Below are positions 11,518 through 38,509 of a stretch of 64,000 nucleotides of DNA, piece after piece (position 1 is the stretch's first letter; each line of letters starts with the position of its first letter). The stretch lies in the NCBI GenBank assembly GCA_022827275.1, contig JAJDTG010000022.1, positions 1-64,000 on the forward strand, given 5' to 3'. This DNA is from Candidatus Dadabacteria bacterium (lineage in GTDB: Bacteria > Desulfobacterota_D > UBA1144 > Nemesobacterales > Nemesobacteraceae). The position numbers were made by a program, and so were the translations under genes. Under the pieces are notes generated by a model, which saw only the letters and a program-made list of their open reading frames with translations, had not been told where the DNA came from and did not search any database.

Positions 11518-11544
11518 CAAATTTAACACGACATATTAAATTTG
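11518..11544 (-). promoter_or_regulatory. Operator-like inverted repeat at first DUF4143 gene
   Basis: CAAATTTAA and TTAAATTTG are exact reverse complements separated by nine bases, ending six bases before the ATG. On the minus strand a TAATAT element, a possible -10, lies at the edge of the first arm. Position and spacing match the repeats at the second DUF4143 gene. Confidence 0.5.
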
Positions 11545-36996: not shown

Positions 36997-37090
36997 CTAG
37001 AAACTATACTCGTAACCGCGGGATATTTCGAGAATTCTATGGCTTGCAGGTTGCGACGCAGCAGTCCGTTATTGACGTAATGAAGGATCG

Positions 37091-38326
37091 TTAGAGGTAG
37101 CCGACAGGGATTGCGGTAACGTCTTCTGACAGCACGACGTCCTGTTCAACGAAGCAGAAAACCGCTCCGTGTCCCACTTTTTTGCCCAATTTTTCAAGCA
37201 GGTGAAAATGCTTGGAAGCCGTGGAAGATGGCGTCGCAGTTTTTTTGAACTCCACGGGATAAAGACTGTCACCCGTTTCAATCACAAGGTCGACTTCCTT
37301 TTGGTCAAGGTCGCGATAGTAATAAAAATATGGCTCGACTCCGTTGTGGTAGTAGCTTTTGAGAATCTCGGAAAACAAATATGTCTCAAGAATAGCGCCT
37401 GACATGGCTCCGGCCTCAAGAGAATCCGGCGTCGGCCACTTGGTAAGATAAGTGCACAATCCGGTGTCAAGAAAATACAGTTTCGGGGATTTCACGAGAC
37501 GCTTGGTCACGTTGCGATGATAGGGTTTTAACAGATACACAAGGCCCGATGTTTCGAGAACCGAAAGCCATGATTTGGCCGTTTTGTTGTCAATTGCCGT
37601 GTCTCTTGCCAAATCCGCGTAATTAAGCAGTTGTCCTGTTCTTGCAGCGACCGCTCCTAGGAAACTGTAAAACAGGGTTTCATCCGAAATCGACAGAATA
37701 TCTTTCACGTCTCGTCGGATATAGGTTTGAATGTAGGATTGGTAAAAAAGGTTGCGTACGGAGTCTGTTGCTTCAACGACTCTCGGAAACGTCCCTTGCC
37801 AAATCCGCTTATACGTCTCCGTTAGGGTCTTGGGGTTTTCAATTGTTCTTTTCGCGTTGTCAATCCAACCGGGTGACGGCAGAAAAGGTGTCAGGCTCTC
37901 CCAGCGCTCGTCTATTTCCGCTTGGGACAATCCTAAAAGATCGATTATTGCGACCCGGCCGGCTAGGCTTTCGGTAATGCCTTTCATTAGGTGAAATTTC
38001 TGGGAACCGGTAAGCCAGAACAATCCATTAGTTTTTTCCCTATCTACAATTATCTTGATATAGCTGAATAAATTAGGTGCGTACTGCACTTCGTCAATGA
38101 TCAGTGGAGGCTTGTGAGTTTGCACGAATAGCCCCGGATCGTTTTGGGCTAGGGTACGGGCTTCTAAATTGTCCAGAGTCACGTAATTTCTGTTTCCCTC
38201 CGCACACATTTCCAGAAGAGTCGTTTTACCTACCTGTCGCGGCCCGGTCACCAAAAGAACCGGGAAATTGTCATTAACCTCTTTTATAATACTGGCTAGT
38301 GTACGTTGATACATGATCAATCTCAT
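37091..38326 (-). CDS. AAA+ ATPase with DUF4143 domain (second copy)
   Basis: A 411-residue relative of the protein at 10349-11512. Walker A is LVTGPRQVGKTTLLE near residue 25, Walker B LIIDEVQYAPN near residue 75, then WLTGSQKFHLMKG. The C-terminal DUF4143 region has a PD-(D/E)xK-like segment (RDLDQKEVDLVIETGDSLYP...EFKK) near residue 345. Function is unknown; these genes move between genomes. ATG 38326 and ATG 38314 are both possible starts; the latter has GAG about seven bases upstream. Two operator-like palindromes and a promoter are packed into the 95 bases upstream. Confidence 0.88.
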   Translation of the reverse strand: MRLIMYQRTLASIIKEVNDNFPVLLVTGPRQVGKTTLLEMCAEGNRNYVTLDNLEARTLAQNDPGLFVQTHKPPLIIDEVQYAPNLFSYIKIIVDREKTNGLFWLTGSQKFHLMKGITESLAGRVAIIDLLGLSQAEIDERWESLTPFLPSPGWIDNAKRTIENPKTLTETYKRIWQGTFPRVVEATDSVRNLFYQSYIQTYIRRDVKDILSISDETLFYSFLGAVAARTGQLLNYADLARDTAIDNKTAKSWLSVLETSGLVYLLKPYHRNVTKRLVKSPKLYFLDTGLCTYLTKWPTPDSLEAGAMSGAILETYLFSEILKSYYHNGVEPYFYYYRDLDQKEVDLVIETGDSLYPVEFKKTATPSSTASKHFHLLEKLGKKVGHGAVFCFVEQDVVLSEDVTAIPVGYL

Positions 38327-38356
38327 TAATTATGGATTACTATTCCAATATAAACG
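38324..38356 (-). promoter_or_regulatory. Imperfect operator-like repeat overlapping start and -10 box
   Basis: On the plus strand, CATTAATTATGG and CCAATATAAACG flank a nine-base spacer; nine of twelve positions of the right arm match the perfect site at 38382-38420. The right arm contains the minus-strand -10 box TATATT and the left arm contains the ATG at 38326. Confidence 0.55.
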
Positions 38357-38375
38357 AGAAAATGGGATATGGCAA
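38347..38375 (-). promoter_or_regulatory. Promoter of second DUF4143 gene
   Basis: Read on the minus strand, TTGCCA (38370-38375) and TATATT (38347-38352) are exactly 17 bases apart. The predicted start of transcription leaves a leader of only about 15-30 bases. The promoter sits between the two palindromes. Confidence 0.6.
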
Positions 38376-38381
38376 TAAAAA

Positions 38382-38420
38382 TTTCGTTAATTATGGGTGC
38401 ATAGTCCATAATTAACGAAA
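38382..38420. promoter_or_regulatory. Perfect operator-like palindrome upstream of second DUF4143 gene
   Basis: TTTCGTTAATTATGG and CCATAATTAACGAAA are exact reverse complements (15-base arms) with a nine-base spacer. Its centre is 61 bases from that of the imperfect copy at 38324-38356. A dimeric DNA-binding protein is the likely ligand. Confidence 0.7.
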
Positions 38421-38509
38421 AAACATTCAGCTTAAAGACGACATGGGGAATTTTCTGAAGCTTTGTTTGCGGAAAAATTAATACATTATTCCTGTTGTGG
38501 CGATTCGGG

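Follow-up and report, generated by a model that had tools for sequence, protein, structure and literature searches.

A conserved promoter-overlapping palindrome as putative private operator of a mobile single-gene AAA_14-DUF4143 module

Restriction-modification systems employ small, separate HTH proteins as their controller (C) proteins. The module described here resembles those systems in being mobile and apparently self-regulating, with operators over its own promoter and expression that would be timed in a new host, but the ATPase-nuclease would be its own regulator. Autoregulated toxin-antitoxin operons are similar in having system-specific, palindromic operators over the promoter of a mobile and possibly harmful gene, whereas the present module has no second gene and one protein would serve as both effector and repressor. 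Iteron-binding plasmid initiators offer a further parallel in their winged helix, in direct repeats two helical turns apart and in autorepression from an operator in their own promoter; in contrast, the protein studied here is an AAA+ protein with a nuclease-like domain, encoded on a chromosome. Transcriptional repression of defence genes is also known from RptR-type repressors, which are reported to act on genes of defence islands as separate proteins and thus differ from a module whose proposed regulator is the effector protein (PMC12255303).

The closest described system is PDC-S01, in which an ATPase and a PD-(D/E)XK domain are fused. A 2026 survey ranked it fourth in frequency among the defence systems of prokaryotes and counted about 39,500 copies; validation is still pending for most candidates of this kind (PMC12988326). 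PDC-S01 is therefore treated here as a candidate, unvalidated defence gene with a putative anti-phage role. The papers found on it give its distribution only, without operator or regulation. The open literature on DUF4143, COG1373, AAA_14 and PF13635 likewise yielded no account of regulation or of an operator, and no description of the mechanism of PDC-S01 was found there.

The gene product and its promoter

The window, i.e. the whole stretch of 64,000 nucleotides of a Candidatus Dadabacteria contig that was analysed, holds an AAA_14-DUF4143 gene (Table 1) whose product belongs to the PDC-S01 family by PADLOC assignment (E 5.9e-114), by its combination of PF13173 and PF13635 and by the same PD-(D/E)XK fusion (PMC12988326). 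Both Pfam domains score above their curated cut-offs, AAA_14 with 99.8 bits (cut-off 27) and DUF4143 with 160.1 bits (cut-off 28.1). A confident AlphaFold2 model (pLDDT 93, pTM 0.93) consists of an AAA+ core, a winged helix (helices 212-224, 232-239 and 243-255) and a C-terminal PD-(D/E)XK-like domain, in which E310, D342, E355 and K357, nearly invariant among 68 sequences, lie on the expected strands. Foldseek matched the model to AAA+, STAND and initiator ATPases, with low TM-scores; sequence searches for relatives in the PDB returned none with the single protein and mostly P-loop-level matches with a profile.

Upstream of the gene, the original prediction had described a perfect 15+9+15 palindrome with an imperfect copy 61 bases away, and both were confirmed. 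The perfect palindrome, O2, reads TTTCGTTAATTATGG-N9-CCATAATTAACGAAA, and its imperfect copy, O1, is spaced from it by 61 bp, start to start. With up to three mismatches allowed, these are the two sites of the 64 kb, as against none in 100 dinucleotide-preserving shuffles, and they are also the sole matches of a degenerate search of the whole 1.77-Mb genome. The operator is accordingly private to one promoter, both genomic copies sitting before the AAA_14-DUF4143 gene.

The sigma-70-like promoter TTGCCA-N17-TATATT was found as predicted, on the minus strand (38375-38347). Its -10 box falls inside the left arm of O1, so that the operator overlaps the gene's own promoter, an arrangement kept across orthologues; that this arm also has to spell the -10 box accounts for the imperfection of O1. 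The imperfect copy had been expected to cover the start codon as well as the -10 box, and only the latter stood. The one start codon that O1 overlaps is ATG 38326 of the longest open reading frame, and since homologues begin with M-Y-x-R-x-L, the real start is ATG 38314, about 7 nt past O1.

Long perfect inverted repeats near a start codon could in principle act as a hairpin of the leader RNA. This explanation was rejected as having next to no probability: the left arm, being the -10 box, would not be transcribed, the predicted leader is unstructured (z = 0.31) and one clade of the family carries direct repeats instead.

Table 1. Coordinates of the features discussed, as positions in the window
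Feature	Position	Strand	Remarks
AAA_14-DUF4143 gene, 407 aa, PDC-S01	37091..38314	-	Pfam, PADLOC; start ATG 38314 from homologues
Winged-helix region, residues 212-281, proposed operator reader	37472..37681	-	AlphaFold2 model; putative role
PD-(D/E)XK nuclease-like domain, residues 305-403	37106..37402	-	E310, D342, E355, K357 nearly invariant
O1, imperfect palindrome	38321..38359		35-bp core 38323-38357 kept across phyla; spans -10 box and expected transcription start
O2, perfect 15+9+15 palindrome, auxiliary copy	38382..38420		Upstream of -35 box; retained in sister genome
-35 box TTGCCA	38370..38375	-	16-18 bp spacing conserved in orthologues
-10 box TATATT	38347..38352	-	In left arm of O1
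Insert, operators and one gene, approximate extent	37050..38500	-	Missing in seven sister genomes; upstream border not sharp
Palindrome of the other DUF4143 gene in the window (L005, 10349-11512, minus strand)	11518..11544		CAAATTTAA-N9-TTAAATTTG, unrelated sequence

Conservation and divergence of the operator

Fifty relatives of the window protein were recovered from 84,980 species genomes, and the upstream regions of those with at least 55% identity were compared together with that of the window, 34 regions in total. They are filed under Dadabacteria, Nitrospirales, TM6, alpha-, beta- and gammaproteobacteria, Bacteroidia, Deferribacteraceae, Chlorobiota, Planctomycetota and Spirochaetes. An element of the form TCGTTTATATTGGAAT-NNN-ATTCCATAATAAACGA is present upstream in 33 of the 34, the sole exception being L036, and spans about eight phyla, a count to be read with the uncertain assignment of the many loci on MAG contigs (L021 and L023, for example, are filed in different phyla and have near-identical flanks). 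It lies 37-54 bp before the start codon (74 in one case) and matches at 21-31 of 32 positions, the 99.9th percentile in shuffles being 21. The comparison of close homologues, which had been proposed as a check on the palindrome, thus came out in its favour, and it identifies the evolutionarily conserved element as the imperfect copy O1, not the perfect O2.

The surrounding promoter is conserved with it. A -35 box (at least four of six positions) stands 16-18 bp from the -10 box in 62% of orthologues, compared with 14% at shifted offsets. Moreover, changes in the outer boxes of the site are mostly mirrored in both arms (GGC/GGC in six, GTG/GTG in three and GTA/GTA in two). O2 is rare: besides the window genome, it occurs only in a sister genome, which retains the arms with a diverged spacer, and in one orthologue from an alphaproteobacterium. 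An identical operator of the window type, TCGTTTAATGTGGAAT-TGT-ATTCCATAATAAACGA, was observed in a TM6 bacterium (L018) and in a locus from the phylum of genome G059 (L283).

Intergenic DNA does contain inverted repeats, and 10 of 275 control genes reached the palindrome threshold applied to the wider family below. Chance as the origin of the window sites is nevertheless refuted by the orthologue comparison and retains a negligible probability, given the conservation across phyla, the empty window shuffles and the lack of any other genomic copy.

Sites and proteins diverge together. Mean half-site identity is 0.89, 0.77, 0.72 and 0.60 at protein identities of >0.75, 0.65-0.75, 0.55-0.65 and 0.45-0.55, respectively, and falls to the shuffled level (0.51) below 0.45. 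A motif served to locate the sites in the orthologue set, unlike those of the other subfamilies, and this raises the upper bins somewhat. Within the protein, similarity of the recognition helix was no better a predictor of operator similarity than that of the remaining sequence, and no set of residues in that helix explained the operator type, the independent switches being few in both comparisons. Such joint movement and divergence of the gene and its switch, from phylum to phylum, points to a protein that governs its own expression.

Mobility of the module and proposed autoregulation

Genomes of the same genus have 0-20 DUF4143 matches each. At the window locus, seven sister genomes are empty, with the CAAX-protease and NAD-synthetase genes about 75-110 bp apart, whereas the window genome and G004 carry the operators and a single gene between these two. 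Three other sister genomes (G001, G006 and G012) have other, differing DNA at this spot (window 36997-38509), which may therefore be an insertion hot spot. Homologues are present in 389 records of plasmids and 9 of phages; the window locus itself is chromosomal, on a 194-kb contig and between housekeeping genes.

Among 32 loci, a flanking gene was common to 15 of 496 pairs, 11 of them between close relatives and four with weak matches, which indicates that the operator moves with one gene only. A toxin-antitoxin module was rejected as an identity for the locus, the insert having a single gene and no co-travelling adjacent antitoxin gene. The end of a mobile element was also discarded, as the other border of the insert has no second operator copy and no target duplication was seen.

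A symmetrical operator is what ordinary dimeric repressors use, and a regulator encoded by the host could bind the palindrome with the ATPase gene as a mere target. The privacy of the operator and its conservation across phyla make this quite unlikely: about eight phyla retain the identical type of site with no companion gene beside it, no other gene of the genome is under its control, and each paralogue has a different site. The same features, i.e. a module found across phyla without a companion gene, an operator confined to one promoter, co-divergence of site and protein and sites of their own in most paralogues, favour the protein's own winged helix as the regulator.

On this sequence evidence, we consider it likely that the palindromes are the private operators of a self-regulating, single-gene mobile module, bound by the winged helix and probably serving repression. 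The AAA+/winged-helix/PD-(D/E)XK-like protein would bind O1, and O2 where present, through the winged helix of its DUF4143 part. As O1 spans the -10 box together with the presumed start of transcription, the bound protein would block RNA polymerase and could hold its own amount at a low set level, to which O2 might add cooperative binding or looping. Since switch and reader move together, the module would regulate itself in any new host. We infer that the protein itself is the binder, that repression is the sign of control and that the benefit would lie in limiting the level of a costly ATPase-nuclease until a trigger arrives.

In Thermus, the AAA_14-DUF4143 gene TT_P0211 was up 6.6-fold with a plasmid present together with Argonaute, a state which is a possible inducing condition (PMC4406477).

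Sites of other DUF4143 subfamilies

The other DUF4143 gene of the window has a palindrome of its own, unrelated in sequence (Table 1); this type of palindrome is longer in the relative L121. Several further DUF4143 genes of the window genome have long perfect palindromes in the same place, again unrelated in sequence, and each of the three paralogue palindromes tested is unique in the genome. A further 110 DUF4143 loci were fetched from relatives, and the resulting 122 genes form 38 subfamilies at 60% identity, with palindromes that are unlike between subfamilies and mostly kept within each. Outside this set, among plasmid genes of cultured bacteria, perfect palindromes directly precede the DUF4143 genes of a Moraxella bovis plasmid (L229; 21+3+21) and of the Treponema succinifaciens plasmid pTRESU01 (L230; 19+1+19).

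A second layout, with direct repeats about 22 bp apart, was recognised by eye in plasmid homologues of Sulfitobacter, Rhizobium, Mesorhizobium and Asticcacaulis. When all repeat distances between 10 and 40 bp were scanned in Dadabacteria genes poor in palindromes, an excess emerged solely at 22 and 23 bp. The genes L118, L124, L171, L102 and L002 have two to four copies of direct repeats with this period in place of the palindrome, the repeat unit differing per subfamily. On the protein tree, the direct-repeat genes cluster mostly in a single clade, their distribution requiring 6 changes where shuffles gave 10.6.

Either layout is present in 22 of the 38 subfamily representatives compared with 12 of 275 control genes (Fisher p 1.9e-15), the thresholds for this count having been fixed on the set in which the 22/23-bp excess was found. 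Backgrounds for the same test were 0.8% of shuffles, 5/37 for a stretch far upstream and 0/38 for the coding start. With unchanged thresholds, genes of other phyla scored 18 of 35, a few of these 35 being related above 60% identity, against 2.7% of shuffles. At the thresholds applied, eight of the 38 subfamilies lack both layouts.

With a spacing of exactly 22-23 bp, i.e. two helical turns, the direct repeats look iteron-like, and a mobile module whose protein combines AAA+, winged helix and PD-(D/E)XK could use such sites mainly as a DNA substrate or docking place for its ATPase-nuclease (for iteron-like loading, as a self-target or as the recognition site for moving the module), their position at the promoter being incidental. 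We regard this as unlikely, because the operator is locked to the promoter, with its left arm forming the -10 box and the distance to the -35 box conserved from phylum to phylum, and because the other border of the insert lacks a second copy.

The sign of regulation is a separate matter. From its place upstream of the -35 box, O2 could serve activation, and in some subfamilies (L051-L054) the palindrome lies upstream of the promoter, so the protein might bind its operator and activate, or alternate between activation and repression. The position of the conserved site over the -10 box and start region is typical of repression and renders this reading very improbable.

Autorepression from a private operator may extend beyond the window gene. 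Tentatively, and at rather less than even confidence, most PDC-S01 subfamilies may have a private, co-evolving DNA address, either a palindrome or direct repeats with a 22-23-bp period, read by their own ATPase-winged-helix-nuclease protein; this address would be both autorepressor site and sensor, an infection-triggered change of the protein freeing promoter and effector together. A private and predictable operator before most PDC-S01 members would make their DNA target predictable from sequence and open the way to simple binding and reporter tests for the family. Such operators would explain how a single-gene ATPase-nuclease spreads between phyla and how up to 20 copies per genome coexist without cross-talk; in turn, the operator-protein sets would supply many naturally orthogonal operator-regulator pairs.

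Two further loci show traces of rearrangement. Upstream of L009 (G000:C21:28064-28516) there is a diverged second copy of the gene's own 5' end and leader, perhaps the remnant of an earlier copy. In L012 and L013 (G000:C8:163891-164363), a DUF4143 gene is split over two overlapping frames, probably as a frameshifted copy, and its promoter has an imperfect palindrome with 11-bp arms.
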